Assembly: GCA_030549335.1 (NCBI GenBank)
Contig: CM060186.1
Coordinates: 20,513,189 to 20,577,188 of the forward strand
Source of the DNA: Pontederia crassipes
Taxonomy: Eukaryota; Streptophyta; Magnoliopsida; Commelinales; Pontederiaceae
Direction of reading: 5' to 3'
DNA length: 64,000 nt
A program made the translations under genes and the position numbers. The notes below the pieces were generated by a model. It saw only the letters and a list, made by a program, of their open reading frames with translations, searched no databases and was not told the DNA's origin. Positions 3,179 through 35,852 of the stretch are shown here, piece by piece (the first letter of the stretch is position 1; each line of letters begins with the position of its first letter).

Positions 3179-3186
3179 ATAAGAAT

Positions 3187-4677: not shown

Positions 4678-4696
4678 TGGAGAAGAAACATGAATG

Positions 4697-4907
4697 AACT
4701 CCGCCTATGTTTTATAGCCGGTCCCAAGCCCGGATAAAGGAGGAGGGTTGTGTTAGGCCCCGACAGCCAGCGTAAAATCCTGTCGAATCTTATGAACATG
4801 GATCAACGAATATAAGATTTGGTTACTAATAGAGCGGAATGGCGTCGTATGATTCATGTAGCCGACCCCACCTAGTGGGATAGGACTTTGTTGTTGTTGT
4901 TGTTGTT
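4697..4907 (+). mobile_element. Short non-LTR retrotransposed insert (RTE-like 3' end or SINE) with 19-bp target duplication
   Basis: A 211-bp segment is flanked by a perfect 19-bp direct repeat, TGGAGAAGAAACATGAATG, at 4678-4696 and 4908-4926. It ends in a (GTT)n tail at about 4888-4907. A perfect long duplication plus a simple 3' tail is the mark of target-primed reverse transcription. The body contains GCCGGTCCCAAGCCCGGAT and CCGACCCCACCTAGTGGGAT, which I recall as characteristic of the 3' end of plant RTE-type LINEs. A SINE using that tail is the alternative. Confidence 0.7.
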
Positions 4908-4926
4908 TGGAGAAGAAACATGAATG

Positions 4927-5851: not shown

Positions 5852-6450
5852 CTTCTGAAATACGTAATTAGAGGTCATCATATGGAAACTCTAACTCTTG
5901 GTGCACCCCAAACTAACAACATAGTCAAACATGAAAAACAAAAAAAACCTTCCTGGTATTTCTAATTTCTTGCTGCCATTGCTCTGTTCTTTGGTCCTCA
6001 TAATATTTGCTATTAACTTTCTCCACAATATCGAATGATCAGGCCTGTGATCTTGTCGACAACCTCAACAAATTTAACCAATTACTATCAACCATTGAAA
6101 ATATGGCCTAGAACCAGATGGCTATTGACTACTTAGCAACAGCCTTCTGAGATATGTAATTAGAGGCCATTATGAGCGAACTCTTAACTCTTGTTGCACT
6201 CCTGATGCTCCTATTCATCCATCAATTTAGACAAAGACGAGCCATCTTTCCAAACTAACAGAGTCAAACATGAAACACCAAAAACACTTCTCTGATCTTT
6301 AATTTCTTGTTGTCGTTACTCTGTTCTTCAGTCCTAATAATATCTGCATATAAGACAACTCACAACCTTAACCAATTTCACCAATTATTATCAACTCTCG
6401 ACTGTTGAAAATATGGCCTAGCACCAAAAGGCTATTGACTACTTAGCAAC
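5852..6450. repeat. Tandem duplication of a ~300-bp unit
   Basis: Two diverged copies lie head to tail. Copy 1 (about 5852-6140) starts CTTCTGAAATACGTAATTAG and copy 2 (about 6144-6450) starts CTTCTGAGATATGTAATTAG. Both end in GGCTATTGACTACTTAGCAA. Copy 2 carries about 18 extra bases near CTCCTGATGCTCCTATTC. No conserved reading frame was seen in either copy. Confidence 0.75.
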
Positions 6451-7786
6451 TGACAAGAAAATTTGGAACTTGAGGATATTAACCAAAATCTTTCAAGGAT
6501 GGACGAAACCAAAATCAGAATCAGAATAAGGAATTATTCTACTCGAAAATAGGGGAGAAGGAGAAAGGTTGGGGAGACTGGAGAAACTCGCTATGTTTGC
6601 TAGAATCTGCTTCGAAGGCGAAGTCGATGAAGCGGTGAGGCATGAAGTTGTCTGGGCGAAGACGGACAAAGCAGTGAGGCTCGAGAAGGGTGCTATACAT
6701 CAGGCTCAGGTTGGCCCTCATACAAGGGCGAGGAGCCGGGCACAAGCAAGGGCGAAGCAATGAGACTGGAGAAGAAGGGTGCTCCATTGGGCTTCGGTTT
6801 GCCTTCATGGTGAGCAGGGAGGAGAGGAATCGACAAAGGGATTCGGGGAGAGAAAGAGTTTTAGATAGCTTTTTTGTTGCTGGGTTGAATTGGGTCACAC
6901 GTTGGTTGGTTGGTTCAGACAGATAATAAAATCACAGACACATAAGGAGCTTTAATTGCATCCGATGGGTCAGGTTGATCCGTTGCATATTGGTCGCGTC
7001 AAAGTTGGTTGCATAGTACTTTTTGAAATGATGGTTGCATTAATCCCCCACCCAACCCCCACAACAACCCCACCCACACAATATATATCTATGATATAAT
7101 ATGATGGCATCCAAGAGGAGTCTCAAGAGACAAGGTATCCAAGAGTTGACAGGGTGCTATAGGTTGTTGTGTTCATACCACAGGATTCTTTTTCCATCCA
7201 AGATGACGAACAATTTCTTCTAAGTCTCCAAACTTATCTTCTCAAAAAAAAAAAAGTCCAAACTTATGCAAAGCAATTTGTTTTGTTATAATGGTCATTA
7301 TTATCGTTCCTGACCACTGGTCCAATTGGCATATTTTTTAATTGAACCCTTTGTTAGTCTCAATCAGCCATTACAAGTAACTACTTGGGTTCTGTATCGT
7401 TAAAAAAACATGATTATTCAGAAACATTCCTAACATAAGAAATTATATCCATAAAAGCAATGTAATCCTAATCCCCAAGTCCGGGAGGATAGGTGTCAAG
7501 TTTCTCGCATTTTGCAACCTAAAAATGAAATGGAATTTCAAGTTCCATTAATGAAATATCTATGATATCTTAAAGTTTGCATAGGTTTCAAAGGACATTG
7601 CAAAATAGTAGCATCAAGAACCGAAAAGATTATTTTTTGAGGAGAGAACCGAAAAGATTATGAAGTTGCAAGACAAACAAAACTAGTGATATCTTATGTT
7701 AAGAAAATTGAATGAAATTTGAAATTCACACTATACAAGTGTCATCAAGAGAAAGCTGAGATATAGATGACTCAAGCTCACCCATG
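6451..7786. other. Intergenic DNA with a GC-richer 0.4-kb island
   Basis: At 6539-6898 the minus strand has an open frame of 119 codons in a GC-richer patch, preceded on that strand by pyrimidine-rich leader-like sequence. The product is proline- and cysteine-rich with no family I recognise. It may be a non-coding first exon or chance. The remainder to 7786 is AT-rich and probably holds the 3' untranslated region of the gene that follows on the minus strand. Confidence 0.3.
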
Positions 7787-9622
7787 TCAATTTGCAAAGG
7801 ATGCAGCTTCTTTAAGATGTGCTCTCATTATTTCTGCAAGATTTGAAGTGGCGTCAAGGCAGAGTTCCATAGCCTGTTCATTAATGCAGAACAATATATT
7901 ACCTTTTTACTTGAATGCCCTGAATGATGGAAAGATCAGGAACTATTCTCTAGTGTAATCTTTAAGTTCAATTGGTTACCCTTGTAATCTTTGGAGTTGT
8001 CCATTCACCCGTCATTGTGAGTTGTGTGATCTCGTTACGAGCTGGCATGCATGCAATCATCAGGCTCCCATCTTGGCAGGCCTCCTCTTCAGCCATGGGG
8101 TCAATAACAAAATCACTCCCAAAACAAGACTACAATGAAGACAAATCAAAGGATAAGTTGAGATAGGCTCTCCTCAAAAAAAAAAAAAAAAAGGTTGAGA
8201 TAGGCATTTTAAAATACACTAAACATCCTACATGTTGATTGAAAAGTCAGATGTGGGATACTTCCAAAGTCCTACCATTATACTATCATATTTGATGTGC
8301 TATTTGTAATTCCTTAACAAAGAATTTCATTCATATAGCCCAATGCAAGTTAATGATGGCTCAAATTTCTCTGCCATAGTATATTCATGAGAAGGTTCAA
8401 AATCTAGCTTCTTACATAAATGAAAATTAATGATGTGTTAACAGTCAGCTACTTTATAACAAAGCCCACACTGACAATTAATCAAAAGTAATAAACATAT
8501 GACCATTGGGAGAGGACACTGCGTTGAATAAAACTCTGATCAATTTGATAATTCTTTTTTAATAAGGTATTGCATTAAGAACATGAAGAAGTAGGCATGT
8601 GGTGACAACATTGAACAACTAAACAGAAATAGCTACACAGTTGATGTAATCTAACTAAGATGCTGCAAGTGAGAGTGGTATGTTAACATACCACTGATAC
8701 AGATGAAACAAGGTCATGCATCATAATGCCAGCATCTGCTAGGGCAAGACTTGCACAAGATATGATAACCGGAAGGTCACCTAGAAATATGAGGCACCCC
8801 TCTTGTTAATATTAAAGAAAATTCATAAACAAGGATGAATAGTCAACACCTATAATAGAATGATTGAAGTGAGAATTCTATTAAATAATGAACGAGTTTC
8901 CCAAGCTGATGGCTCGTAAAGTACCAACTTAAAGAAGAATATTCTAAATTGTGCTCGAGAAAAAAGAAAAATATTCTGAATGGATAATGATGTAGCATTC
9001 TATTACTCAAAATCACATAAAGAGCTAGTTGATCGCAAGAGTGCAAGATAATATACAAGGGCTAAGTAATTGTGTGAAGAAAAGAAAATACATAAAACTT
9101 GAAAACTGTGGAAATATCAAGATGATTTTCATTGTGGAAACATTAGTCGAATGAGAAAACATAAAACCTGAGAAATTGAGGCAACAATGATTTACATTTA
9201 TCGCAGCATTGGTGAAATCAAACTGAAACACACATGAAAATATGCAATCTAAGTTTGAAATAGATCAAACAAACAAGCAATTCTTCCATATAATATCTTT
9301 TTTACCATAAGGATGAGTCACCCAACGATTCATATAATCCTGAAAGAGCAATACTTTCGTGATTCAAAATATGCAATGAAGATTAGAAACAGAATTGCCA
9401 CATAAATCACACTGCACGTTCTCCATATTCAGTCTAACCTAACCAATGAATAAGGAACAAATTGAACTTTAAGGATGGAAGATTATATCGATCTTACTTT
9501 TGTGGTTAAATTAAAACAAGTTTTTGATTCTTACTATATCTATGTTTTTGAAAGAGACTCTCCTTCAAACAATATAAGCCCTAAACAGGTCAAACAATAT
9601 AAGCCCTAAACTTCTCCTCCAA

Positions 9623-12020: not shown

Positions 12021-12058
12021 GCTGCCTCAAGGACGTTGCTGACTTGAGTGGGGGAGAA
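12021..12058 (+). other. Extra polypurine-tract region outside the 5' LTR
   Basis: Directly before the 5' LTR the sequence reads GCTGACTTGAGTGGGGGAGA (one mismatch in about 30 bp: GACGTTGCTG for GACGTCGCTG). The same string precedes the 3' LTR at 17252-17281. A polypurine tract belongs only at the inner edge of a 3' LTR. Its presence here indicates that the left LTR was once the 3' LTR of another copy, or arose by recombination between copies. Confidence 0.7.
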
Positions 12059-12602
12059 TGTCCCGGGAGCTTCTTCCCGGGGCACGTCGAGTTATCTTAC
12101 CATGTATTTTCCTTTTTCAACCCACTTTTGTACTTAGTTTATTTTCTAAGTGTGGTGATGACAGTTTTATAATTTGCACTCTAAAAAAGTGCACCCCCGG
12201 AGATGGTCCTCCACACCACACATCACAATTCTACCACCCGAAACGATGGTATAGTAGGGGAGACCCGCTAGTGCTCCCCCGAAGCGTTGTAATCATTCCT
12301 ATTTACTCAACAAAGATTTCAAGCTTCCCTAAACCTAGCATTGTGCCTCATGCGTGGGGTGGCAACTCACAAAAAGCGTCACAAAGCGTCCCAAGCGATC
12401 GAGCGTTACGTCGAAGTATCCATTTGTTCATAAACGCCTCAACCGAAGAAGCGTCCGCCCGGGACCGTGCGTCCCAAAAGTTGTGGCATACAAAAAGTGT
12501 CATAAGCAAGCTTCCGCAAAGCGCTCAAAAGAGCTTGCCTAGACGTTGGGCACGTCTAGGCGCCGCACGGGTCGGTCGAGCGAAAAAAATGACCCCGTGA
12601 CA
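12059..12602 (+). repeat. 5' LTR of the Ty3/Gypsy element
   Basis: It starts TGTCCCGGGAGCTTC and ends AATGACCCCGTGACA. It is 544 bp, the same length as the 3' LTR, with scattered substitutions between them. An open frame across most of it is incidental. Confidence 0.9.
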
Positions 12603-12605
12603 AGT

Positions 12606-12617
12606 TGGTATCAGAGC
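12606..12617 (+). other. Primer-binding site for initiator tRNA-Met
   Basis: TGGTATCAGAGC lies three bases inside the 5' LTR. It is complementary to the 3' end of plant initiator tRNA-Met, the usual primer of these elements. Confidence 0.9.
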
Positions 12618-12663
12618 AGCGTTTCTGGGACTGCTCAAGTTGGCGTTCGACGATCAAGGTGAA

Positions 12664-13956
12664 ATGACGTTAAACTCGAAAATGACGCATGAACCCGTCG
12701 CACCGGAGAAGGGCCGCCAGGAGCGAGGGCGCGCCCGCTCGAAGGACAACATGTCCGCCTTCGAGCAACGCCTCGGCCAATTCTAATTGGACGTGGGCGA
12801 GATGCAAGACCAACTTGTAACGCACGAGCGGGAGTTGGAGAAGACCGTGAATCTCACAACGGTGCGGGAGGAGATGACGCCGTTGTATACGCGGCTGAAG
12901 TCCATGGAAGCGACGATCATGGACATGCGGGAGACCTTGGATAATGGTCTCTCAAATATGCGGTTCGAGATGGACCAAGAGTTCAAGACCATGCGGGAAG
13001 AACTCAAGCGACGGTATGGAGATGGGCGGCGTCCCGAGGCGCCCGTCCCGCATGAAGCAAGGATTGAAGTACCGAAATCGCGGCCCTACAAAGGCGAGCG
13101 GTCGGCAAAGGAGATCAATGACTTACTGTGGAACGTCCGAAGGTACATGGAGGCCTTGGACGTGTCATCTGAAGCGAGTCTGTGGTGGCAGTGTCATCGT
13201 TGAGTCTGTGGTGGCAGTGTCATCGTTGAGTCTGTGGTGGCAGTGTACATGGAGACCGCATCATTCTACTTGCAAGATGCGGCGAGTCTGTGGTGGCAGT
13301 GTCATTGCGACGATGTGGAGCGTGGCATCGTTGATCCCATTGAGAAGTGGGACGACTTCAAGAGACAACTTACCAACTATTCTGCCCTGCCAAGTCGGGA
13401 TTGGAAGCTAAGATTGCGTTGTTCAACATTTGTCAGAAGGGCACGTTGAAGAAGTACGTGAAAGAGTTCACCGAGCTCCGCCTACAGAATTTTCAAGTGG
13501 ACGAAGACACGTTGTTGGCGGTCTTCGTGAAGGGTTTGAAGCCATGGGCTAGGACGGAGTTAGAGCGACGAGATTGCCCCAACCTCCGCTCGCTAGTCGT
13601 CGCTGCCGAGTCGCTCGTGGAGTATACCAAAGCGAGCACTCCACCACCAAAGCCCTCGGGCAAGGGCAATGGTGGGGGAGAGAAGTCCAAGTCACAAGGA
13701 GGCAAGCCACACTATCAAGATAAAGGCAAGGGACACCAAGACAAGAAGCCGAACAATGAAAGATTCAAGAGGGACGGAAAGCCGCCAAAGCCTTGCTACG
13801 TTTGCAAGGGTCCACATTGGACAAGCGATTGTCCGCAGAAGACGATAGTCAACGCAATGTATTGCCCCGACGAGAATGAGAAGGATGAGGCGTGTCTCAG
13901 TTCGATGCACGTCCTCAGCGCCATCAACGCCTCAAAGGGTCCTTCAACGGCTGCTC
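12664..13956 (+). pseudogene. gag: Degenerate gag of the Ty3/Gypsy element
   Basis: A start at 12664 (MTLNSKMTHEP) opens a frame that meets a TAA at 12784-12786, then continues with a coiled-coil-like N-terminal part to about 13200. A 26-bp triplication then introduces a TGA. The frame changes near 13395, after which the capsid C-terminal part (KKYVKEFTELRLQNF) and a basic stretch are read. The nucleocapsid knuckle CYVCKGPHWTSDC at about 13793-13831 has the CX2CX3HX4C spacing. Gag would form the retrotransposon particle. At least one stop, one insertion and one frame change make it defective. Confidence 0.85.
13177..13254 (+). repeat. Three tandem 26-bp units inserted in gag
   Basis: GAGTCTGTGGTGGCAGTGTC followed by ATCGTT repeats three times, the last unit incomplete. 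A fourth single occurrence of the core AGTCTGTGGTGGCAGTGTCA lies 35 bp downstream at about 13285, where it belongs to the conserved SLWWQ part of gag. The insert is a multiple of three in total length but brings an in-frame TGA. Confidence 0.85.
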
Positions 13957-14300
13957 GGTTCTATGCGGATATCGAGCTGAACGGGCAAGTCTTCAACGCC
14001 CTCATCGACACGGGAGCATCGGAGTTGTTCGTGTCGAAAGTGGCCGCTAAGAAGCTAAAGCTGCCACTATAGAAGACAAACGCCACGTTCAAGACGGTGA
14101 ACGCGAAGTCTATCTCGACCACAGGAATTTCTCCTGGAGTGAAGGTTCGCATCGGCAAGTGGTCGGGAAGCTTCGACGTGACGGTGGCACTAGTGGATGA
14201 CTACGAAGTGGTGGCGGGTATCTCTTTCCTGCGACACATCGCTGCATGTGTCATCCCGCTCACCAACTCGATGGTCATCTTCGACCTCAAGGGACCTTAC
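13957..14300 (+). pseudogene. pol: Aspartic protease region of pol (interrupted)
   Basis: The active-site motif ALIDTGASELFVS lies at about 13998-14036. A TAG at 14070-14072 interrupts the frame; the protease C-terminal part resumes in the same frame (DVTVALVDDYEVVAG, about 14175-14219). The enzyme would mature Gag-Pol. The stop disables it. Confidence 0.85.
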
Positions 14301-14429
14301 AACGTCCCTGTGAGGTCAGGCGGAGATCTTAAGCAGAAGACCCTCTTCGCTATGCAAGTGGCGAAGGGGTTGCGCAAACAGGAGCACACCTTCTTGACGA
14401 CTGCCATCTTCGAAGATCCGGGGCCCTCC

Positions 14430-15450
14430 ATTCCAACACCTCCCAAAGTCCTTGAAACTCTTGAGGACTTTGCGGATGTCATGCCCCCGGAACTCCCAAA
14501 ACGGCTACCGTCGAAGCGTGAAGTGGACCATGTCATCAACTTGGTCCCAGGATCGAAAGCCCCACATGGAGTCCCCTATCGGCTCGCCCCTCCGGAACTC
14601 GCAAAACTCCGTAAGCAACTTACCGAACTATTGGATGCAGGATATGTTCGGCCTTCAAAGTCTCCATATGGCGCCCGGTTCTCTTCCAGAAGAAGCATGA
14701 CGGTTCCCTCCGGATGTGCATCGACTACCGGACACTCAACAAGCTTACGATGAAGAACAAGTAACCCATCCTCTTGGTGGCGGACTTGTTCGACCAATTT
14801 GGCGGTGCAAGATGGTTTACCAAGTTGGACCTTCGATCGGGCTATTGGCAAGTCCGGATCGCGAAGGATGATGTGCAGAAGACGGCGTGTGTCACAAGAT
14901 ACGGCTCCTACGAGTTCCTCGTGATGCCTTTTGGTCTCACCAATGCCCCGGCGACCTTCTGCACCCTCATGAACAATGTATTACAACCATTTCTTGACAG
15001 GTTCGTGGTTGTCTACCTCGACGACATAATGATCTACAGTTGCACCTTGGAGGAACATATCGAGCACATTCAACAAGTGTTCGAGGTGTTGCGGCAGAAT
15101 GAGCTCTACGTCAAGCGGGAGAAGTGTGCCTTCGCCCAACCGGAAGTGCACTTCTTGGGACATGTCGTCGGAAGTGGAAAGCTGAAGATGGATGGCGCGA
15201 AGATTCGGGCCATCATGGAGTGAGAGCCGCCCAGGCGGATTCCCGACATGCGTTCGTTCCTTGACCTGACGAACTACTATAGGCGGTTCGTCAAGGGGTA
15301 TTCACATGTGACGGCCCCTTTGACGAATCTCCTCCAGAAGAATGTGAAGTGGGAGTAGACGCCGACATGCCAAGAAGCGTTCGACACCCTCAAGAGGGTC
15401 ATGACGGAGGAACTGGTGCTCGTCCTGCCAGACCACACCAAGCCCTACGA
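14430..15450 (+). pseudogene. pol: Reverse transcriptase region of pol (interrupted)
   Basis: Conserved RT blocks are in order: LPSKREVDHVINLVPGSKAP (about 14510), [17 protein letters not shown] (about 14625), FTKLDLRSGYWQVRI (about 14817), VMPFGLTNAPATF (about 14920) and the catalytic VVYLDDIMIYS (about 15010). A frame change after SPYGA (about 14680), TAA at 14761-14763, TGA at about 15221-15223 and TAG at about 15357-15359 break it. The catalytic YLDD itself is intact. Confidence 0.9.
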
Positions 15451-15900
15451 AGTATAGACAGATGCTTCTAACTATGCCATTGGAGGAGTTCTTATACAGG
15501 AAGGCATCCCATGGCATTCGAGAGTCGCAAACTCAACGACACGGAGCGGCGCTACGCCGTTCAGGAGAAGGAGATGACCGCGGTGATTCACTGCCTTCGA
15601 ACATGGCGGCACTACATTCTCGGGTCGCGATTTCACATCAAGACGGACAATGTCGCGATAAGTTACTTCGAGACGCAGAAGAAGCTCTCGTCGAAGCAAG
15701 CAAGATGGCAGGATTTTATGACGAAATTCGACTACGTTCTGGAGTACAAGCCTGGCAAGACGAATGTCGTTACCGATGCCCTCAGCCAACGCACGAAATT
15801 GACGGCCATGAGCTCCTCTCAGGCCGACCTCATCGAGAGGATCAAGAAGGGATTGGAGTCAGATCCCACGGCAAAGAACTTGTTCGAACAAGCGACGAAG
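15451..15900 (+). pseudogene. pol: RNase H region of pol (interrupted)
   Basis: The frame begins with TDASNYAIGGVL just after a TAG at about 15456-15458. It shifts near 15510 and then reads KLNDTERRYAVQEKEMTAV and FHIKTDNVAISYF. The segment ends in YVLEYKPGKTNVVTDALSQR, the usual hinge to integrase. It would degrade the RNA of the RNA-DNA hybrid. Confidence 0.85.
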
Positions 15901-16745
15901 GGCAAGACACGCCGCTTTTGGGTGGAAGATGGGCTGATCTTCACTAAGGAACGTCGTATCTACGTTTCACTCTTCGACAACTTGTGACGCACTATCATGC
16001 AAGAGTGCCATGACTCCAAGTGGGCGGGACATCCGAGCATCCGCCGCACTTTGGCACTCATCGAAGACTACTTCTGGCCAAGGATGGAGGACGACATTGA
16101 AGCTTTCGTGAAGACCTGTCTTGTTTGCCAGCAAGACAAGAATCTCAATCAAGCACCCGGCAGACTTCTGGAACCTCTACCCATCCCAGAGCGTCCATGG
16201 AAAGATGTCTCCATGAACTTCATCACAGACCTGCCCAAGTCTGAAGGGGCAGGTACAATCATGGTGGTCGTCGATCGGTTCTCCAAGTATGCCATCTTCG
16301 TCGCTGGCTCCATAAGTTGTCCTGCTATTGAAGCTGCGGGGTTATTCATGAAGCATATAGTGAAGTATTGGGGCCTACCACAAAGCATCGTCAGCGATCG
16401 GGATGGGCGATTCATTGGCAACTTCTGTAAGGAACTGTTCAAGATGATGGGCTCCAACCTACATTTCTCGACATCACTTCATCCTCACGGTCAAACTGAG
16501 AGGATGAATTGTATCTTGGATATATACCTGCGGCACTATGTAAGTGCCAATCAGAATGACTGGGCGAAGCTACTCGACATCGCGCAATTCTCCTACAACC
16601 TGCAATGGAGCGAATCGACCAATCGGGTCCCTTCGAGATAGTGACGGGACAACAACCTCTTACGCCCCAGGCCGTCGCCACTTCTTATGGTGACAAGGTC
16701 TCTGCCGCTCACCGCATGGCGATGGAATGGCATGAGTAGAACGAC
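15901..16745 (+). pseudogene. pol: Integrase region of pol (interrupted)
   Basis: An HHCC zinc-binding segment (H in GHPSIRR, then CLVCQQDK, about 16030-16140) precedes the catalytic core. The three acidic residues are visible in VVVDRFSKYAIF (about 16264), SIVSDRDGRF (about 16387) and HPHGQTERMN (about 16480). A TGA near 15985 separates the core from RNase H, and the frame is lost after about 16620. Confidence 0.9.
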
Positions 16746-17258
16746 ATGGCGAGAGCATGTTTGCACAAGGCGTCGAAGCACATGAAGAAATGGGCGGACA
16801 CCGCCCGACGGGACGTCAACTTTGAAGTCGGAGACTTGGTCCTAGTGAAGCTGGTCCAACATCTTCGGCTAAGTGGGAAGAATCTGCACAAGGGCCTCGT
16901 TAGGCGTTACGAGGGCCCCTTCAAGATCCTAAAGAAGGTAGGCAAGGTGGCCTATAAGTTGGAGCTCCCGCCTCAGATGCAGCAACACCCCCTCTTTCAT
17001 ATCAGCCTGCTCAAGCCTTTTGTTGAAGACCCTGAAGATCCCGGGCGTGGGGTTTCTGACCGCGCCCCGCCGGCCATCCGTCAATAGTTTACTGATCAAG
17101 TTGAAGAAGTACTCGCCGTCCGCACGAATAATTAGAAGAAGGAGTATCTTGTTCGATGGAGCGGAAAACCGAACGCCGACACAAGTTGGGAGACAGCCGA
17201 AGACCTGTGGCAGTTCAAGCAGAAGATTGAAGAATTCCAAGCTGTAGCTCTAGGGACG
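16746..17258 (+). pseudogene. pol: Integrase C-terminus and chromodomain (interrupted)
   Basis: KASKHMKKWADTARRDV and GDLVLVKL mark the GPY-like module of integrase, followed by YEGPFKILKKVGKVAYKLEL and HPLFHISLLKPF. After a stop at about 17085 the same frame reads VEEVLAVRTNN, a TAG (about 17131), then KKEYLVRWSGKPNADTSWE and EDLWQFKQKIEEF. These are chromodomain strands and the terminal helix. In such elements the chromodomain steers integration to marked chromatin. Confidence 0.85.
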
Positions 17259-17265
17259 TCGCTGA

Positions 17266-17281
17266 CTTGAGTGGGGGAGAA
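17266..17281 (+). other. Polypurine tract
   Basis: The purine-rich string GAGTGGGGGAGAA ends directly at the TG of the 3' LTR and would prime plus-strand DNA synthesis. Confidence 0.85.
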
Positions 17282-17825
17282 TGTCCCGGGGGCTTCTCCC
17301 CGGGGCACGTCGAGTTATCTTACCATGTATTTTCCTTTTCAACCCACTTTTGTACTTAGTTTATTTTCTAAGTGTGGTGATGGCAGTTTTGTAATTTGCA
17401 CTCCAGAAAAGTGCACCCTCGGAGATGGTCCTCCACACCACAAGTCGCAATTCTACTACCCGAAACGGTGGTATAGTAGGGGAGACCCGCTAGTGCTCCC
17501 CCAAAGCGTTGTAATCATTCCTATTTACTCAACAAAGATTTCAAGCTACCCTAAATCTAGCATTGTGCCTCAAGCGTGGGGTGGCAACTCACAAAAGAGC
17601 GTCCCAAAGCGTTCCAAGCGATCGAGCGTTACGTCGAGGTGCCCGTTTGTTCACAAACGTCTCCACCGAAGAAGCGTTCGCTCGGGACCGGCGTCCCAAA
17701 AGTTGTGGCATACAAAAAGTAGCATAAGCAAGTTTCCGCAAAGCGCTCAAAAGAGCTTGCCTAGACGTTGAGTACGTCTAGGCGCCGCACGGGTCAGTCG
17801 AGCGAAAAAAATGACCCCATGATCA
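17282..17825 (+). repeat. 3' LTR of the Ty3/Gypsy element
   Basis: It begins TGTCCCGGGGGCTTC and ends ATGACCCCATGATCA. The end differs from the 5' LTR by a one-base insertion and a few substitutions. Confidence 0.9.
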
Positions 17826-24711: not shown

Positions 24712-25880
24712 ATAACATCACGATCATCGAACTTTAGAAACATTTTAGCTACTGTCATCATGATCGGTTATAGCCAATAAATCTGTAAATCGCTAATGTG
24801 ACGCTGACGTGAATGCTTAACAACACATTCGCTCTCCTTCACGTCCAATTTAAAAATAACAATGCCACATTAGCATTTTTATCTATGCTATGTCCAAATT
24901 TAATTTTGTATCTATATGGTCATCCAACTTTTCAAAATTTTCAGATAAGATCATTCAACTTTTTAAATTTTTAATCGCGATCATCATTAAAAGCTTAAAA
25001 TAAAAATAGTAATAAATAATAAATATAAAAATAAAAATTGAAGACATTTAGACTATTTCGCACAACCCACTCGGATTGAGCCCCTGAAATTTTTAATCTT
25101 TATTAAATGTATAATAATATGGTAATTAATAATTTTTCATTAAGGAAATAAAAAAATAATAATATACCGATTATATTTTTGCCCTAAAATTTAAAATAAT
25201 AAAAATATTGTGTTCACGTGATATTTTATCGGAGCTGGGCCAACACACTAGATGTCAAGTCGTCTAGCAGGGGTCTTGGGCACGACCCGACATCCAACGG
25301 TATGGCTCGACCCCGATAAAATCTCGTGAGAAAAACTATTTTTATTTTATAATTATCATATTTTTTATTATTTTAAAATTTAGGGAAAAAATATAATCGA
25401 TATATTATTATTTTATTTTTATTTCCTTAATTAAAATTATTAATTATCGTAATATTATATATTTAATACACACTAAAAATTAGGTCGGCTCGATCTGAGT
25501 GGGTCGTGCATAAAAAAGTACCGAGTCAGTCTAAGTCCCTCCAATTTTTTTATTTTTATTTTTATATTTATTATTATTTTTTATTTTAACTTTTTAATGA
25601 TGACCGTGATCGAAAATTTGAAAAGTTGAATGATTTTATATGAAAGTTTTGATGACCATGTAGATACGAAATTAAGTTTGGACAGAGCAGAGAAAAAAAT
25701 GTTAATGTAAATTTTTTTTAATTTTTTTAATCTGACGTGAAGGAGAAAGAAAGTACTAACGTGGTGTGAATCAACGTCACATAAGCAATTTACAAATTTA
25801 CTAATTATAACATATCGTGATGGTCACGGCTAAAATATTTTTAAAATTTAATAATTGAATGGCCTTACTGAAATATCATC
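24712..25880. repeat. Large foldback palindrome (~1.1 kb, arms ~550 bp)
   Basis: The left arm (about 24712-25262) and right arm (about 25275-25880) are imperfect inverted copies. Paired segments include CTCCTTCACGTC (about 24835) with GACGTGAAGGAG (about 25733), GATATTTTATCGGAGC (about 25221) with its partner CCCCGATAAAATCTCG (about 25310), and TTTGGCCCTAAAATTT-like runs on both sides. The loop is short, around 25262-25275. No coding frame was found. It is most likely a foldback or MITE-type element. Confidence 0.75.
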
Positions 25881-26063: not shown

Positions 26064-26570
26064 GTTAAGGGATATATGGATCAAATTTTGATTCATACAT
26101 ATGGATCATCGTCGGATCACGAATGGATGCTCCAGATGATGCGCGGTTTAAAGACCCCGGTCTAACAATTTTATGATGTTAAAATCTGGTTTCCTGGATG
26201 AACCACCGGTCTAGCTAAACCAACTAAAATACCCCCAAATCTAAAAAATGCCCACCTCCCAATTTTGCAATCCTGAATCCCTCGAACAAAAACCCTCTCT
26301 CGTTCTCTCCCTCAACATCTCTCCTCCTTGATCGATTTTCCATGCCGCCGCCGACGTGGTGGTAAATGTCTATCGATTTTTCATGCCGTCGACGCCGATC
26401 CACTTTCATCTCTGATATCGTCTTCGAAAATCTGTTGAGTTGCCTCCACCTTATTATTGCACGAACGCCGTCGGGAAAGGTTAGTTCACCTTATTATTAC
26501 CATTGTATACATAAGATTATTTTGTTTTTTAGTGGTTAATATTGTTTGTTGTCCTGGAAGTCTGGACGTG
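26064..26570 (+). repeat. Left terminal inverted repeat of the MULE
   Basis: It pairs with 35344-35852 over about 507 bp, from GTTAAGGGATATATGGATCA at the tip to TGTCCTGGAAGTCTGGACGT at the inner edge. A GC-rich portion at 26330-26480 could hold the transposase promoter, since MULE promoters usually lie in the TIR. Confidence 0.9.
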
Positions 26571-26661
26571 CTTTTAAGCCACATATTTTTGTACATTTAT
26601 ATATTTAATAATTTCATATCAATACATTGCTAGTTTTCCCTTGATTAGTCTTGTGTGAAAC

Positions 26662-29600
26662 TGTCACGACCCCGATTTAACCCGTGAGTTAAACTAGAGT
26701 TCGTGACTCATTACAGACGATCAAATAAAATTATAAGAAATGCAGAAACGTGATGTGATTTACTCTTCCTTTTACAACATAAGAGTAAAAATATATATCA
26801 TAAAATAAATTACACAATATGTGATCATTTCAGAGCAAACTGATACTTCTTAAGTCGTACATTTTACAAAATGAATTTATTTTCGTTACAACTTATTTTG
26901 ACAAAAATAATAAACTCGACCAACTCTCTCGACATCCTAACAAAAGGACACGACAATAACAACTCCCATCAATACCTTTACATCGAAAGAGTTATCCCTA
27001 CTAAGATTATGAGCTCGCGCAATTCAAGAAGCTATATTGATATGAAAAATATTAGAAACAACATTATGAGCAAAAATAGCTCAGTAAGTTGGTAACTCAT
27101 AGCCTATGTGTTACCAACTAATCAATTCGTAGTTAGAAAAACATGCAATAATCATAATAGCAAAATAAGCATTTTCATATATTTGATAATTACGTATATA
27201 ACATACTAATAAGAAACATCACACTCAACTTGCAGTCAATATCATATAAATCATATCAAACATATGTATGCAAATGCAACACTCTCATATGAATGCACGA
27301 ATCACCAACTGGCCAGTGATCGGTAGGTGGATTCTAGAGGTGGCTTCCATCGTGATCGGCGATGTAGCACTTAGCTCCATTCTACCTCATCCCTTTTGGA
27401 GAACATATCATATAGCGAAAGGTGGATTCTAGAGGTGGCTCCCATCGTGATCAGCGATGTAGCACTTAGCTCCATTCTATCTCATCCCTTTCGGGGAACG
27501 CATAGCGATAGGTGGATTCTATAGGTGGCCCCTACGGATTCTAGAGGTGGCCCCCATCACGACTACTCATGATGTGACACTTAGCTCCAGCCTATCTCAT
27601 CCCATTATTGGGGAACAAAATGATGATTTGAACTCTAGAGGTGGCTCTTATCGTGATCAGCGATGTAGCACTTAGCTCCAACCATCAAACATGTAATGCA
27701 GGCATATACAGATTCATGATTCATCATATAACAATTATATTTCGAACATCATGAATCATGTCGAATACCTTTTCAAACCGAACAAGATTGCACTTCTCAT
27801 AACTCATTCATATCATATCACATATGTTTTTCAAATGTGCAATCATATAATCATTCAAATATACTTTTCACAATTGTATTTCTCGAAATCAATTCATAAC
27901 ATTTCAAAATATATTCAATACATATAATAATCGATGTCACACCGAATTCAAAAGAGGTGAATACATAGAGTAAGAGAAATTAACTTACCTCTTATGACAA
28001 TATGAAAGACTTTTCCTTTTTTTTCTTTTCCTTGTTATTCTTCTAGTCCTATGTCAATAATATGTGTTCTTATTAATACTACTATGTAAGTACCATGTCT
28101 TACATAGATAAAACAATGACCAATTCCATATATTACTCATGCATTCAATCCTATAGCTTAATTAATTGATTAATCGTAAGAATTCATCTTGTACCCACAA
28201 ATCACATACTTGGTGAAATAAAAATGATATATTTTGTTACATGAAACAAAATCTCATGATGCTAATTTTATATGAATGTAGGATTATTAAAATTTAAGCA
28301 ATAATTGTTTCAGATTTTATCTCATCATGATTGATCTTCAGAAAAATTAGCATTCATCCTCCACTTGATGTTAATTCTATGTTTTGACGGACTGAGTGAT
28401 GTTGATTGTGTGATCTATATGAATTGATAAAAAAAACTCCTTTTCTGGCAATTTCAATTTTTCCTAGACTTAGACTTTCAAAGGCATAAGTTATCAATTT
28501 TCTACTTTTTATATCCATCTGAATCGAGCACAATAAATTTCACAAGCACTAAGATAATCTTCTCTAAATTTCCTGTGACAGACTTAGAATGCTCGGTTAG
28601 TCCTTTATTACTTCCTATAGAAATATCCTTTTCAAATGATTCCACTTGAAAATGAAGACTAACATCAGTATCTTGTTGATCCTAAAAAATCCAATATTTA
28701 TATAATATTTTCGATTTAATATCTAATTTACAAAATTAGATAATAGTTTTAATAGATAGAATGATAAAACCTTACAAATGAACACATATCTTTCTCTACA
28801 TATATCTAATTGACCTGATTCCAAAGCTTGGTGAAGGTAGACATAAAATGTAGTCGACATACTTAATTTCATAATTTATACCATTTTAAATACTTATTAG
28901 AAAATCTTGTGGTGATACATACTTAGCTTTAACATCTGTGAGATAAATAGGTAACCAATGTAAATATGATATCTTATTATATATATAATTTATTTTTGAG
29001 TAATTGTAGTTGGGTTAGGTAGACTACAAAAGCGACAAACTCATTTAGAATTTTCAGAATTTTGAATGACCGGTGTGAATAAGAGTATAATATAGAACTT
29101 AACCATATATCTTCGAGAACAACACAACAACTACACACTATTTTGGTGATTACATACTACACGTAATTTTGAGATCATTCTCAAATACCATGGAATCTAG
29201 ACTCATATAAGTTCATGTTATATAAAATTCATAATTTTTAAAAGACTTTTTACATAGGGTTTTCGATCATACAAGAGAACATCCGAAGGTTTTGTAAACT
29301 ATTAAATTCTATTGAATAACTTACTCTTATTATCAATTTGAAACTTGACTGATCGAATAATTATTAAGAATAACTGTTCAAAGATATGAAGTAATAAATT
29401 ACAAAAGATTTAACATACGTACCTTCACCCTTGTCAATTGTCTTCTATCTTTCGTATTTACCTCCTAACAAATTGGCTTCATTCAATTTCCTTGCATAGT
29501 GTCAATAGTAGTTTGAATAATTTCTTGAGATGGCCAAGGGGCTTCCGATGTGCTCATGAATAGATATTGAAAAAAATTGAGAAACTAAGGCGGTTGTGCC

Positions 29601-30366
29601 GAAATAGATAAAAATAAAATAAAGTTTCCTTGATTAATAACTAAGGACTCGGATTTATGTCTAATAAGCTTAACTAAAATTAGGTAATTTAAATATATAT
29701 CGGAACAATGTGCATGAGGGCATAAACATCCAATTGGTAAGCTAAGAGTGTATCCTTATCTTCTTATATTATAGTATGGCGGTAGAGTTAACAAAGGACA
29801 TGGAAGTATGAGGTGTCAACTTAACTTGCACAATGTCTGCATGCAAGGCACACGAGAGTTAGTGGAAGGTGGGGTGAGGTAAAAATATTAAGATTTATTA
29901 TATTTATTACTAGTAACTGTAATCTGTTTTTTTTCCAATATAAGTGGAACAATAAATAAGAGAATACTATATCCTTTATGACAATTAACTAAGTAAATAA
30001 CGGCTATTAATTTGCCAAAGTATTTATATGAACTAATTAATAAACTAATAACGATACAGATAGTTAGGTCAAGTCAAAGCATTCAGTAAATGAGTAATTA
30101 TCTCACCATCTTTGCATGAGAGTCAATTAATCGGAATAAATAATATATATACTAATATTTCGATATGATAATTTAATGGAGCTTGGATAAAAGAGTTACT
30201 TATTAAATCCATATTTAATTAGGCTAATTAACTATTTGCCATTAAATTAATTAGCTTAAAAAATAATTTGGATATAAACATTAAATTGTATTAGATAAAT
30301 GAAAATAGCCAACTTAAACAATTGATCAAGTTAATTATATATGGGGTAAAATCTTGGGATGTTATA
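26662..30366 (-). repeat. Solo LTR (3.7 kb, Tekay-like) inside the MULE
   Basis: It begins TGTCACGACCCCGATTTAAC and ends TTGGGATGTTATA, flanked by GAAAC (26657-26661) and GAAAT (30367-30371), a 5-bp duplication with one mismatch. The terminal CA has apparently mutated to TA. Read on the minus strand the start TATAACATCCCAAGATTTTA resembles Tekay-type LTR starts, so the minus orientation is inferred. No coding sequence is seen inside. It splits the left TIR from the transposase gene. Confidence 0.7.
27325..27690. repeat. Four tandem ~95-110-bp units inside the solo LTR
   Basis: Each unit carries TCTAGAGGTGGC, then GATGTAGCACTTAGCTCCA (or a variant), then CTCATCCC and GGGGAAC or GGAGAAC. Units start near 27325, 27420, 27513 and 27630. 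The third is longer and the fourth is incomplete. Confidence 0.8.
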
Positions 30367-30484
30367 GAAATATCTTTTTCAAGTGAATGAAGATGGTGGT
30401 CATCCGACATTTTCACTATGAGTCAAGATGGTGGTCATTTTTATTTATCTTTTCCCCTCTCTGTATGTAGGTTACTAAAATACA

Positions 30485-32957
30485 ATGGATGCAAGTAATA
30501 TGCAGTCGGACGAAGAAATAACTTATTCGGCAATTACATCAAGGTATATATTATGTGTATCATATGACTCAGTGATGATTGTTCCTATGTCATTTAATCT
30601 TGAGAGGCCTTTATCCTATTCTTTTGTCTTTTTTTTAGGGAAATTAATACTAATTATTTGGTTAATGAAGAGATCCAACCTACAATCATAAAACCCATTT
30701 TAGGTATGGCCTTTGATTCAAAAAGCCAAGCATATGAATATTATAATTTGTATGCTAAAACAGTTGGTTTTTCGGTTCGAAAATCATATACTGGAAAGTG
30801 TAGAAAAACTGGCAATATCGTTAGTAGGTTGCTTGTTTGTTCGAAGGAAGGACACAAGATTACTAATGATGACGAAACCATGAAAAGAGTGAAAAGAAGA
30901 AGAGATGTTAGAGTAGATTGTGGTGCTCATTTGCAAGTCGCGATTAGAAACGATGAAAAGTGGGTGGTTAAAAAATTTGATGAAAGGCATACACATCTCC
31001 TTGCTACTCCCACAAAAATCACAATGTTACGTTCTCATAGCAAAATATCAGATGGATCTAAACTAGTCATGAATACTTTACATGGTATAGGAATGGGTCC
31101 ATCGTTGATTGCTAAAGTACTGAATTATTTAGGTGAGCCATCAGTAACACCGCAAAACTGTATTGACCATTTAAAAACAACACGTGTAAATAAGATTGGA
31201 GAAGAATGTATGGGTGTGATTAGATGCTTTGAGAGAAAAATGGTCAAAGATGAAAACTTTATTTTCAGATGGGAAGTAGATAAAAATAATATTGCAAGAA
31301 GTGTATTTTGGGCTGATTCAAGATCAAGAGATAGTTATGCTATATTTGGAGATGTTGGAAGCTTTGATACAACATATAGAACAAATAAATTATGTATGCC
31401 TTTCGCACAATTTACTGGAGTTAACCACCATAGACAATCAATTCTATTTGGATGTGCTTTATTAGCTGATGAAACAAAAAAAAACATTTGTTTGGTTATT
31501 CGAGACATAGCTAGAGTGTATGCATGAAAAGCATCCTATATGCATAATTACCAATCAAGATGTTGCAATGGGTAATATCATTCATAAAGTGTTTCCTAAA
31601 ACACATCACATGTATTGCATTTGGCATATTAAAAAAAGTGCTATGTCTCATCTCCAAGATTTATATGCACTAGAAAACTTCAAACAAGAACATGGAAAAT
31701 GGATTCATAATTCATCAACAATTGAAGAATTTGAAGATACATGGCTATTGTTAAAGGACAAGTACAAAATTCGAGATGATCATTGGCTTGCAACAACGTA
31801 CGAGAAATGTCAACATTGGGCTACTGTTTATTTAACGAATGTATTTGCTGCGGGCATGCGTACAACTCAAAGATCAGAAAGCATAAATTCATTTTTTGAT
31901 GGCTTTGTGAATGCAAATACTTCTCTAACTGAGTTTGTGCGCCAATATGATAAGGCAGTTTTTGCTAGACGTGAGGCAGAAGAACGGGCATATTTTAAAA
32001 ATTTAAACTCAGTGGCAGCTATAATTACGAGAAATCCTTTGGAGAAGCATGCAGGAAATGTTTATACTGATAAAAATTTTTCAATATTCCAACAAGATTT
32101 CATGTGTACGTTTGATTTTCGCTCTAAAAGAATCGAACAAGAACATCAAAAAGTTGTACATTATGTGTATTTAGGAGGGGATGCACATGATAAAAAAAGT
32201 TATGTTGTGGAATTAAATAAACAGTTGGAAATTTCAATTAAGTGCTCATGCAAAAAGTTTGAGAGGGATGGAATTTTATGTTCTCATGCATTGTATGTTC
32301 TCAATATTGAAGATGTTTCAAAAATACCGGAATATTGCATTCTTCATCGATGGACAATGGATGCTCGATATTCAACAAAATGCAAAATTCATGATGCATC
32401 TAGTTCTACGGTTGGACAAAGAATCATAACACCAATTCAAGATTGGAATTTCAGGCATAATATGCTGATGGCTACTGAAATGGGATTGCGTTCACCTTAT
32501 CATCTTAACATTGCAGCACTCCTCGTAGATAATTTTATTGAAAAGTTAACTTCGATTCAATATGATCAAGCAATTTCAGTTGACACCTCAATTGGACAAA
32601 GAAATGACTCCCAAGGAATGGAGTTTATTATTCATGATCCACCTCGTGTAAAATCAAAGGGGAGACCGAAGAAACTTGGAAGAATAAAATTAGGTATTGA
32701 AATTTCGATGGCACAAGCGACCAAAAAAAAGGGAATCTGACGGAAAACCAACAAAAAAGGAGGAAACTATTGTCATTGGCCCATCATTACAGGTATATAT
32801 CTTAGCAAACTTTAATTAGTTTTATAGGAACTGTTATTATGCACTTAATATCACATGTGGAAAACACTTTTGAACACAGATTGAACGACTTAGCCAAGTT
32901 GGTCAAAGAGCTAACGAATCAACAAGTCACTCACAAAGTCAAAGGTTTAGCACATGA
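30485..32957 (+). pseudogene. FAR1/MULE/SWIM transposase of the Mutator-like element, with two frameshifts and a stop
   Basis: The gene starts MDASNMQSDEEITYS (exon 30485-30543); the second exon opens at 30639. Domains in order are a FAR1 DNA-binding region (GMAFDSKSQAYEYYNLYAK to DERHTHLL, about 30700-31005), the MULE catalytic core and a SWIM zinc finger (CSCKKFERDGILCSHAL, about 32241-32291). Acidic residues are visible in FGDVGSFDTTYR, ITNQDVAMGN and TQRSESINSF. An indel in an A9 run (31476-31484) changes frame, and TAG at 31508-31510 replaces the conserved tryptophan codon. A second A-run shift at about 32724-32731 precedes the tail, which ends with an exon at 32880-32957. It would cut and move the element. 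Location between long TIRs argues against a domesticated FRS gene. Confidence 0.85.
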
Positions 32958-33559
32958 ATGTTTTATTTAAATCTCATGTTTTTCAGCACTAACAAGCTAT
33001 TTATGCATATTTTTCAGCACTAAGGAGGACATTGTTGCCTAATTTCTTCTCATTTTAGCAATGGAGACAAGCTAATTAAGGGTACTAGCAACCTATATTA
33101 TTGCTTTTTATTTTCATTATTAACAAGCTGCATGTTTTATTTTTGTCCATTGACTTGCATTACTAAGAAGTTGTTTTGTTTAATTTTAGGGTCTACATAT
33201 TCAATTCGGGTGCCTAGCTATTTTTGGTTTCAATGATGGACAAGCTAGTTGAAGACACTACATTTTGATTTCTAATTGTAGCAACATTATGTTTTATGAT
33301 GCATTGTGGCATCAAGTTCAATTGTTATGGCATTGCCATCTTTTGTGCTCTTTGAAAATGTGTTGCCAAGAAAATTCAATTACTATGTGGCTATATTTCT
33401 GTAATCCTATCTTGGGGGACTAATGCTATTTACTTGCTCATTTGAGTTATACCTTTTATTACATTATGGTTTAGCGCCTGACATTTGTGAGAAGTCTATG
33501 TGAAGCACATTAACAACATGATGAATGCTGCATTTTTATACCTTTTGAAAACGTGTTGT

Positions 33560-34035
33560 CAAGAAAGATGATGAATGCTGCATTTTTTGCAATGAAGGCT
33601 TCCCCGAGGCTAAAGCCCTCTTCCACATTAACAACATTCTAGTCAGGAAGTTGGAATATAGCTGAAAATGCTACAGTAGCAATAAGAACGGCAACCACGG
33701 TATTGGAATTTATTGCATTGTTGAGACCTCCTATGTGAAGTTTCTGGAGTCTCTTCTTTATCTTCTGGACCTTCACTTCAGTTTGCCTAGTCTGTTTAAT
33801 TTGGGACTGGACATCGTGCTTTATATCACTAAAAGTTTGCTTCAGTTGCTATGCTGCATTAGGAGGATTTGCTGGTTCTTTAATAGTAACAGCGCCAAAT
33901 TCTGTTAAAATGGCAGCAATCTCTTCATGCGAAGATTTCTTTGCAATGGCAAGAGCAGTTTCTCCTGCTCTGTTCGCAGCATTGATATCAATGCCCTCAA
34001 CTGATAATAGTGTTTTAACAATCAGCAACAGGGAA
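33560..34035 (-). pseudogene. Captured fragment of an ITN1-like ankyrin-repeat/PGG-domain gene
   Basis: On the minus strand the sequence reads an ankyrin-like end (EGIDINAANRAGETALAIAK, then HEEIAAILTEFGA), a stop, DIKHDVQSQIKQTRQTEVKV, RLQKLHIGGLNNAINSNTVV, then VAVLIATVAFSAIFQLPD, another stop and EEGFSLGEAFIAKNAAF. This is the junction and first membrane segment of plant ITN1-type ankyrin proteins (PGG domain). It lacks a start, most ankyrin repeats and the later membrane segments, and carries at least two stops. Lying inside the MULE, it looks like a Pack-MULE-style capture. Confidence 0.85.
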
Positions 34036-34296
34036 ATGGGAGTTATTAGGAGAACTATATGCTCCAGAATCTATAATCAAGAGCCACCATATGTGTGTCA
34101 AGCATCTGTACAACTTATAGATAGGTAGATAGAGTGAAGGAAGGCTGCACCCACACTAATGAGAAAAGGTAAATTATAAGTAAAACTACAACATGTAACA
34201 GACCTTTTTTTTTAGGATCTAGGCTCTTGGAAATAAAGTGCTTCCATAAGGTACAAACATGTTTAGTACAAATTATGTTTAGTACAAACTTTCAAA

Positions 34297-34783
34297 CTAA
34301 AGAAAGTTCATTTTAACTAATACAAATGACAACATCATTCCAATAAGTAAATACATTGTTTTATCTCTCCAAGCCACATCTTCATATGCTACAACTTTAT
34401 TGAGCAGACCTATTAAAATGACCCTGTGTTTATCTACTCTGCGTCTTTGGGCTCCACCATCATTTAGCAAACTTATTAGAATACTCCTATGTCGATCTTC
34501 CATAGTTGGATCTAACCATTGAAAAAAATCGCAATCTTGAGATGGGCGTTTAACCTGCAATAAAAGCACATGAAAAATATTCTTTAGTTTAAATGAAGCA
34601 ATACAAAAGAATTTTTATTGTCTAGAATAGAATATTTACTTGAAAATTAGGGCACCCCCAAAATCGTCTTCCAGGATTATTATTTGTCCATGAGGTATTT
34701 AATATTGTCTTATCTCCACGGGCACAAAATGGAATATCTAAGGCATACGAAGGATGCGACGTAAATGAGACAGAAGATGACAT
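34297..34783 (-). CDS. GRF-type zinc-finger protein with C-terminal membrane segment, convergent to the transposase
   Basis: Two minus-strand exons (34640-34783 and 34297-34554) joined by a GT-AG intron give 133 residues. The N-terminal half has the GRF zinc-finger pattern: FCARGDKTILNTSW (Cys20), NNPGRRFWGC (Cys44), then DCDFFQWLDP (Cys56). The usual first C-x-C pair is reduced to a single Cys followed by A-R. The last ~20 residues (MYLLIGMMLSFVLVKMNF) form a hydrophobic segment, as in the plant At4g04775-like small GRF proteins. It sits inside the MULE, transcribed towards the transposase. An upstream in-frame ATG at 34888 would give a longer N-terminus, but 34783 fits the family better. 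Its role is unknown; a captured host gene or an element-encoded helper are both possible. Confidence 0.7.
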
Positions 34784-35343
34784 CTTAATGGATGTATTGC
34801 CTTGTGAAACAAAAAAGATCTTAACTAATGAAATAATCTTATGAAGTTGATTTCTTTTCTTATTAAGAGAGAAAGGGACCACTAACACAACTTCGTATTA
34901 ATTCAATTTGGAGTATGAGTATTATAAGTGACAGGAAAAAGAGTCTACATAATCCCTAAATAACCTACACAATATACAATATTTGGTTGAACATTCCAAA
35001 ACCTGCCACCAAAAAATTAAAGAAACATTGATTTTCAGAAGACTCGGAAGTCTATTGACCATAATGTGAATCATATATTGCTTATTTTATTTAACAGTCG
35101 CTTGCTTGTTTGCTGGTACAAGTATATAACTTGTCATTAGAAACACAAAGTTATAAATAAAAAGGTATGCATGTCCTACAAAACAACATCATCATCTCTG
35201 ATAGTGGATCAGACGTAGAACAACTGAGGAAGGAAAAAAAAGCAAGAAGAGGCAAGACAACCTAGTTCAGAATGAAGCTCTTGCCCTGACACTTGGAGAT
35301 CAATGGATCTAGATGGATTGCAGGTGAGATCACTTTTCCATAT

Positions 35344-35852
35344 CACATCCAGACTTCCAGGACAACAAACAATATTAACCACTAAACAACAAAACAATCT
35401 TATGTATACAGTGGTAATAATAAGGTGAATTAACCTTTCCCGACGGCGTTCGTGCAATAATAAGGTGGAGGCAACTCAACAGATTTTCGAAGACGATATC
35501 AGAGATGAAAGTGGATCAGCATCGACGGCATGAAAAATCGACAGACATTTACCACCACATCGGCGGCGGCATGAAAAATCGATCAGGGAGGAGAGATGTT
35601 GAGGGAGAGAACGAGAGAGGGTTTTTGTTCGAGGGATTCAGGATTGCAAAATTGGGAGGCGGGCATTTTTTAGATTTGGGGGTATTTTAGTTGGTTTAGC
35701 TAGACCGGTGGTTCGTCAAGGAAACCAGATTTTAACATCATAAAATTGTTAGACCGGAGGTCTTTAAACCGCGCATCGATCTGGAGCGTCCATTCGTGAT
35801 CCGACGATAATCCATATGCATGAATCAAAATTTGATCCATATATCCCTTAAC
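35344..35852 (-). repeat. Right terminal inverted repeat of the MULE
   Basis: Inverted partner of 26064-26570; the tip reads TGATCCATATATCCCTTAAC. It ends about 420 bp beyond the GPI8 stop codon. Confidence 0.9.

Follow-up and report, generated by a model that had tools for sequence, protein, structure and literature searches.

A GRF zinc-finger gene convergent with the FAR1-type transposase gene in a Mutator-like element of Pontederia crassipes: a putative helper module found in two element families

Introduction

In MuDR, a Mutator-like element (MULE) of maize, the two genes mudrA and mudrB converge. The product of the second gene, MURB, is presumably not a GRF protein. Here we describe a MULE of Pontederia crassipes in which a FAR1-type transposase gene faces a small two-exon GRF zinc-finger gene. 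It lies in a 64,000-nucleotide stretch of DNA (assembly GCA_030549335.1, contig CM060186.1, 20,513,189 to 20,577,188, forward strand), hereafter the window, whose numbering is used throughout. We consider it likely that the window copy is a dead two-gene MULE, with a helper GRF gene that has been passed as a module between MULE families.

The sources below are cited by their PubMed Central (PMC) accessions, for the passages that treat these genes. In MuDR the terminal inverted repeats (TIRs) serve both genes as promoters, and integration requires mudrB (PMC8224964). A 2019 survey lists the Jittery sub-group of dicots and monocots with one open reading frame (ORF) and FAR1 as the sole other motif (Table 1, PMC6446971), with TIRs of 39-292 bp and 8-bp target duplications where these are given (PMC6446971). 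Elsewhere among MULEs mudrB, VANC and ULP1 are accessory genes, while FAR1 (Jittery) MULEs are listed as one-gene elements. ULP1, a protease domain held to have been captured several times, occurs in either orientation and in both MuDR-like and Jittery-like families (PMC2528002). Abermu elements have a second ORF, ORFR, whose function is described as unclear and which is said to show no similarity between distant plants (PMC9168764).

Among the papers listed in full-text searches of the open-access PMC literature, we found none that links a GRF protein to a MULE. A term search of a 2026 review of gene capture did not return the word GRF. A wheat quantitative trait locus paper contains both 'GRF zinc finger' and 'transposase', in the passages concerned as unrelated terms (PMC7729826), and 'GRF' in PMC3091740 denotes, where it is used there, a different gene family. 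Among domains enriched in Asteraceae, the GRF type is listed beside transposon-linked zinc fingers (PMC10359422).

Results

One pair of terminal repeats encloses two convergent genes

The MULE spans 26064-35852, about 9.8 kb, and is bounded by 509-bp TIRs. Gapped blastn aligned 26064-26570 with the reversed 35344-35852 over 509 columns at 96.3% identity; an ungapped inverted-repeat search of the window had missed them. Long TIRs of this kind speak for MULE membership, and the element termini read GAGG(A/T)TAAGGGATATATGG. The first-pass annotation, made from the sequence alone, had placed both genes inside one TIR pair. This was borne out, and its coordinates and strands for the transposase and the two-exon GRF gene proved correct. 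The order from left to right is TIR, LTR-like (long terminal repeat-like) insertion, transposase gene, ankyrin/PGG fragment, GRF gene and TIR. The features of the two genes and the TIRs are as follows (a slash in a motif marks the splice site; UTR, untranslated region).

26064 to 26570, plus strand: left TIR, with the terminal motif GAGGTTAAGGGATATATGG from 26061 and a candidate 5'UTR exon
26480 to 26481, plus strand: GT of a candidate splice donor in the left TIR, GGAAAG/GTTAG, which closes the candidate 5'UTR exon
30485 to 32957, plus strand: FAR1-MULE-SWIM transposase gene, frameshifted near 31480-31530, with open pieces 30604-31527 and 31511-32740
34297 to 34554, minus strand: GRF exon 2, with the ribbon end, the middle region and the hydrophobic C-terminal tail
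34555 to 34639, minus strand: GRF intron, GT-AG, 85 bp, with GT in 19 and AG in 16 of 20 aligned copies
34640 to 34783, minus strand: GRF exon 1, with the start codon and the first part of the zinc ribbon; Cys22 is replaced by Arg in the window copy
34801 to 34802, minus strand: candidate acceptor AG of a 5'UTR intron, with a pattern like GTTTCACAG/G
35344 to 35852, minus strand: right TIR, with the same candidate donor, its GT at 35434-35433 on the minus strand

In the transposase gene, the Pfam domains FAR1 (E 3.1e-21) and MULE (3.1e-11) share one frame, and a second frame from about 31511 holds MULE (1.1e-8) and SWIM (6.8e-7). Since the domains are split over two frames, the gene is frameshifted near 31480-31530 and is broken, as had been annotated. 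The MULE domain in two pieces identifies a MULE transposase, and an N-terminal FAR1 with a C-terminal SWIM domain is the combination of the Jittery clade. We also saw by eye the motifs FDTTY, NQD and QRSES, which we take to be the DDE residues of the transposase core.

The GRF coding sequence comprises two exons with 402 nt including the stop, and encodes 133 amino acids. The spliced protein scored above the Pfam cut-off for PF06839 Zn_ribbon_GRF (31.5 bits vs 25.9, E 1.9e-7), and no other Pfam family exceeded its cut-off. We assume that the zinc-binding residues can be assigned from the GRF pattern. On this assignment the second zinc ligand, Cys22, is Arg in the window copy and Cys in 14 of the 19 other aligned copies; all four Cys are kept in 10 of 20 copies, including L047 and L048 (L numbers designate sister loci). 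The first-pass annotation called the GRF frame intact. The frame is indeed open, but the description was misleading, because with a zinc ligand lost the open frame does not imply a working protein. Judged from its sequence, with a frameshifted transposase gene and a GRF protein lacking a zinc ligand, the window copy is dead.

The GRF gene accompanies the transposase in sister copies

We searched the 1.13 Gb genome separately with the FAR1 part of the transposase and with the GRF gene, and scored the best 40 of 1132 and the best 40 of 322 candidate places, respectively. Ten transposase-GRF pairs lay within 15 kb of each other among these 40 x 40 places, where 0.04 would be expected by chance, and all ten were convergent. 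Eleven transposase places had an identity of 83% or more; among the matches listed, all of these but C16:41128354 had a GRF partner (10 of 11). The remaining 29 transposase places are uninformative on GRF presence, given that only the best 40 GRF places were scored.

In addition to the window, 20 GRF loci were fetched, of which 19 are ranks 2-20 of the GRF search and one, L048, is rank 30. Transposase similarity was present in 17 of the 20, convergent in all. Because L048 was picked for its neighbouring transposase match, the unbiased count is 16/19. The match was only a short piece in L030, L032 and L043, and was missing within the fetched stretch in L034, L040 and L044; that of L034 lies about 11.5 kb away, beyond the fetched stretch.

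A single TIR pair surrounds both genes in L029, L031, L033, L037, L047 and L048. A TIR search of the genome, independent of gene content, gave 21 matches. Six elements had two TIR matches: the window, L029 and L031 carry both genes (the L031 transposase is partial), while C13:37250446, C5:49804486 and C7:24925958 showed neither gene among the matches listed. Nine TIR matches were single; three adjoin fetched GRF loci (L030, L032 and L040) and the other six had no adjoining gene match among the matches listed.

Target duplications of the 8-11 bp typical of MULEs were observed in the family, not at the window copy. They were perfect, with 9 bp, at L031 and at L047, which belongs to a second family described below, and near-perfect at L033, L040 and L048. 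L040 retains the GRF gene only. In L031 (with its partial transposase), L033, L047 and L048 the duplications flank the gene pair as a whole, which shows that the two genes are mobilised together. We conclude with high confidence from these arrangements that the GRF gene belongs to the element.

Both genes evolved under constraint

Selection was measured with a codon model that allows separate omegas (dN/dS) for internal and terminal branches, in 20 GRF copies (the window and 19 others). L032 was excluded since an insertion splits its GRF gene. Stops were handled as missing data, and branch lengths were kept proportional to those of nucleotide trees. The GRF omega was 0.268 on internal and 0.716 on terminal branches. 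The log-likelihood rose from -3240.99 in the neutral model to -3221.93 with one omega and -3212.85 with two; it was -3236.16 with the internal omega fixed at 1 and -3216.17 with the terminal omega fixed at 1. An internal omega of 1 was thus rejected (2ΔlnL 46.6). When the alignment was read in the wrong frames, omega was 1.92 and 1.81. Per region, the internal omega was 0.22 for the N-terminus, 0.26 for the GRF domain, 0.25 for the middle and 0.35 for the tail. From these codon patterns, the GRF gene has been under purifying selection over its whole length, the tail alone being borderline.

For the transposase (the window and 14 loci, 15 copies) we obtained an internal omega of 0.15 (0.15-0.18) and a terminal omega of 0.53. 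A low omega in the moving lineages that is relaxed after insertion is the pattern expected of a gene that the transposon needs.

Within the main group the distances of the two genes agree (Mantel r 0.58, 0/5000 permutations, 13 copies), pairs with fewer than 100 shared codons being omitted. The approximately unbiased (AU) test rejected strict co-inheritance of both genes in the 15 copies, both when the GRF alignment was placed on the transposase tree (p 0.017) and in the reciprocal comparison (p 0.004).

A second MULE family carries a similar GRF gene

The transposase of L046 and L047 is distant from that of the main group, with 0.43 amino acid identity and 0.374 at four-fold sites (0.72 and 0.739 within the main group), and is near synonymous saturation relative to the window family. 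Their GRF gene is close, with 0.65 and 0.688 (0.70 and 0.771 within the main group). L047 is a complete element (3123-9542) with termini GGAAATAATGGGTGTC and the perfect 9-bp duplication TTTTTTCAA. Its TIRs are unlike those of the window family and its gene order is identical. Among the 20 fetched loci, its outer TIR matched only L047 itself and L043.

A query piece from L047 covering the transposase end and the GRF gene was used to score the best 40 of 911 candidates. The GRF gene stood in the same arrangement at 34 of these 40 places, nearly whole in 33, and was reversed in none. The ranking favours GRF-bearing places because the query contains GRF. When 40 places were ranked by the second-family transposase alone, 16 were also in the L047-piece set, and 15 of these 16 had the GRF gene. 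Comparison of the transposase-only table with the GRF-only table (236 candidates in the second-family GRF search) gave eight pairs, all eight convergent. The second family looks very abundant: the L047 transposase piece had 1652 candidate places, and in the 40 that were scored the main pieces were at least 85% identical.

Between the families, similarity is far greater for the GRF gene than for the transposase, so an exchange of the module is probable. Exchange between MULE families is, on sequence similarity, probably the simplest account.

Properties of the GRF protein

By sequence, the closest solved structures were the GRF fingers of NEIL3 (E 0.0021 and 0.0056), followed by a weak match to ZCCHC4 (E 0.099). 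Matches to syntaxin-1A (E 0.17) and TIAM1 (0.77) were dismissed as chance. The GRF fingers of mouse NEIL3 are described as binding single-stranded DNA (PMC9266487).

The C-terminal stretch, residues 115-133, is hydrophobic in the window copy (Kyte-Doolittle mean 1.85). In every aligned copy but L040 (19 of 20), the most hydrophobic 19-residue stretch starts at residue 114-115, with a hydropathy of 1.73-2.47.

Elsewhere in the genome, at least 46 GRF-domain matches exceeded the Pfam cut-off among the best 150 of 1181 candidates. In these the domain often lies within one exon, and several open frames are near 98 amino acids. These matches may represent another repeated GRF family.

Other sequences in and around the element

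Two further features lie inside the element.

26662 to 30366, no strand assigned: nested LTR-like insertion, TGTCACGACC...GGGATGTTATA, with flanks GAAAC and GAAAT, absent from the sister L029
33639 to 34070, minus strand: ankyrin/PGG fragment, ankyrin repeat and PGG, between the transposase and GRF genes

The ankyrin/PGG fragment, which we take to be ITN1-like, was unmatched in all 20 sister loci. The fragment, searched against the genome, had 12 matches, counting the window, from 11 candidates. Full-length relatives with 97% identity were found at C12:43886925 and C11:46474145, and the rest had 71-85%. By its low copy number and close relatives the fragment looks like an ordinary recent host capture; the GRF pattern differs.

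The LTR-like insertion is 3.7 kb long with 5-bp flanks and is possibly a solo LTR. It holds a tandem array with a unit of roughly 95 bp (27325-27529). Outside the element, an imperfect palindrome at 24730-25848 (1180 aligned columns, 71% identity) adjoins the left TIR on its outer side. At 12043-17771, open frames from about 13.3 to 16.6 kb resemble by eye a Ty3/gypsy-type retrotransposon, and two alike frames flank them at 12.0 and 17.3 kb.

Discussion

The first-pass annotation proposed a second MULE gene as opposed to a private capture, and this proposal is supported by the convergent pairs, the internal omega of 0.27 and the second family. Place and orientation of the GRF gene in sister copies agreed with it (10/10 pairs in the window family, 34/40 places in the second), as did a GRF dN/dS below 1 on internal branches. 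On our best reading, FAR1-type (Jittery-like) MULEs have in the GRF gene a new accessory gene, comparable to mudrB or VANC. That it acts as a transposition helper is suggested, with moderate confidence, by its conservation.

Several observations weigh against this reading. A target duplication was absent or unclear in the window, L029, L035, L037 and L042, that is, in five of the ten copies with both ends recognised, and no clean one was found around the window copy or L029. Stops in the projected frame occur in 17 of 20 aligned GRF copies, and stops occur in 14 of 14 aligned sister transposases. We ascribe both to decay; as the codon projection skips insertions relative to the window frame (some in L031 and L040), the stop counts underreport the damage. 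Among the copies read we saw no fully intact element. The transposase and GRF trees conflict, chiefly in the placement of L046/L047, and the omega of the tail alone was not significantly below 1 (2ΔlnL 3.75). Hydropathy is the basis on which the tail is placed, tentatively, in a membrane. The TIR splice donor, GGAAAG followed by GTTAG or GTTAA near the inner end of both window TIRs and by GTTAG in L029, was not found in L031, L033, L037, L040 and L048 and was thus seen in two of seven copies. Every relative used belongs to one plant genome. Sister copies without the GRF gene, which the annotation had named as counter-evidence, do exist, but as a minority: six of the 40 scored second-family places and, among the matches listed, one of the 11 window-family places. 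Such a minority is what decay would give.

The alternative that survives best concerns function. Instead of being a catalytic or integration helper, the GRF protein might counteract silencing, like VANC in VANDAL elements; we regard this as possible but doubtful. The arrangement is alike, with a selected accessory gene adjoining the transposase, and VANC shows that MULE accessory genes can counter methylation (PMC10398659 and PMC5735166, in the passages on VANC). TIR sequences diverge strongly from one subfamily to another, which a turnover of recognition sequences would lead one to expect. However, only GRF reaches the Pfam cut-off in the protein, and one GRF type is shared by families whose TIRs differ, as would be more readily understood if its role did not depend on sequence.

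It is unlikely that two MULE families independently captured the same host GRF gene with no exchange of a module. Similarity between the families is largely limited to the GRF gene, apart from the weaker transposase similarity, and the genome does hold other GRF domains, the 46 or more matches above the cut-off. Yet the gene has the same site, orientation and intron in both families, with a like acceptor upstream; many of the 20 copies have a pattern like GTTTCACAG/G immediately upstream of their GRF start codon. Nor was any of the 20 GRF loci read an intact source gene.

Very improbable, in our view, is a host gene captured and passively carried in the manner of transduplication by Pack-MULEs, with no role in transposition. 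MULEs often capture genes, the window copy itself holds the ankyrin/PGG capture, and stops are as frequent in the GRF copies as given above. However, the ankyrin/PGG fragment is low-copy and absent from the sister loci read, while the GRF gene occurs in many divergent element copies (322 and 236 candidates), unlike a Pack-MULE capture, and every pair observed is convergent. A passively carried gene would be expected to drift on internal and terminal branches alike, and with an internal omega of 0.27 this explanation is largely refuted. As to a source gene outside transposable elements, the other counter-evidence named in the annotation, there was no intact GRF gene in the 20 loci read; it was sought only among scored matches, the best 40 of 322 candidates. 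A chance neighbourhood of two separate transposons, conceivable because MULEs nest often and the window has a nested LTR-like insert, is a negligible explanation and was ruled out by the one TIR pair around both genes in six copies, the outer target duplications of L031, L033, L047 and L048, and ten convergent pairs against 0.04 expected.

For the two-gene MULE with a helper GRF gene we propose the following mechanism. With what we see as an even chance, the GRF gene would be a portable helper module of FAR1-type MULEs, encoding a small nucleic-acid-binding, possibly membrane-tethered protein, that was swapped between TIR families and raised their success, and it would correspond to mudrB and VANC while having a separate evolutionary origin. 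From each TIR the adjoining gene would receive its promoter and its non-coding first exon, so that both genes would be made together, the cut-and-paste transposase from one side and the GRF protein from the other. The GRF ribbon would bind single-stranded DNA or RNA, and the hydrophobic tail would anchor or oligomerise the protein. The GRF protein may then aid transposition, by strand handling or integration like mudrB, or shield the expression of the element. The module could have crossed MULE families via recombination or template switching.

That a selected second gene is common to two TIR families points to MULE accessory genes as modules that can be exchanged, and makes the role of MULE second genes testable. 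It may also explain, as a lead only, some of the small plant GRF zinc-finger proteins annotated as host genes.

Comparison with known systems

Like MuDR, the window element has a transposase gene and a second gene oppositely directed within one TIR pair (PMC9168764, in its account of MuDR). MuDR differs in its transposase, which is of the MURA clade, whereas the window element has the FAR1 and SWIM domains listed for the Jittery group. Jittery-type MULEs share with it the transposase with an N-terminal FAR1 and a C-terminal SWIM domain; unlike them, the window family keeps a second gene and has 509-bp TIRs and 9-bp duplications.

The ULP1-carrying MULEs (Kaonashi type; grapevine and melon) also have an accessory sequence downstream of the transposase, but in the window family this sequence encodes a GRF domain and is convergent in all pairs seen. 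In VANDAL elements, likewise, the conserved transposase gene is accompanied by an accessory gene, VANC, that persists throughout a MULE family. VANC is described with DUF1985 and DUF287 (PMC5735166), neither of which was reported for the GRF protein. In Abermu, an opposite second ORF, ORFR, lies between the transposase and the 3' TIR in two types, with Ka/Ks below 1 (PMC9168764, in the passages on ORFR). We compared ORFR and the GRF gene by description; the word GRF is absent from the main text of PMC9168764.

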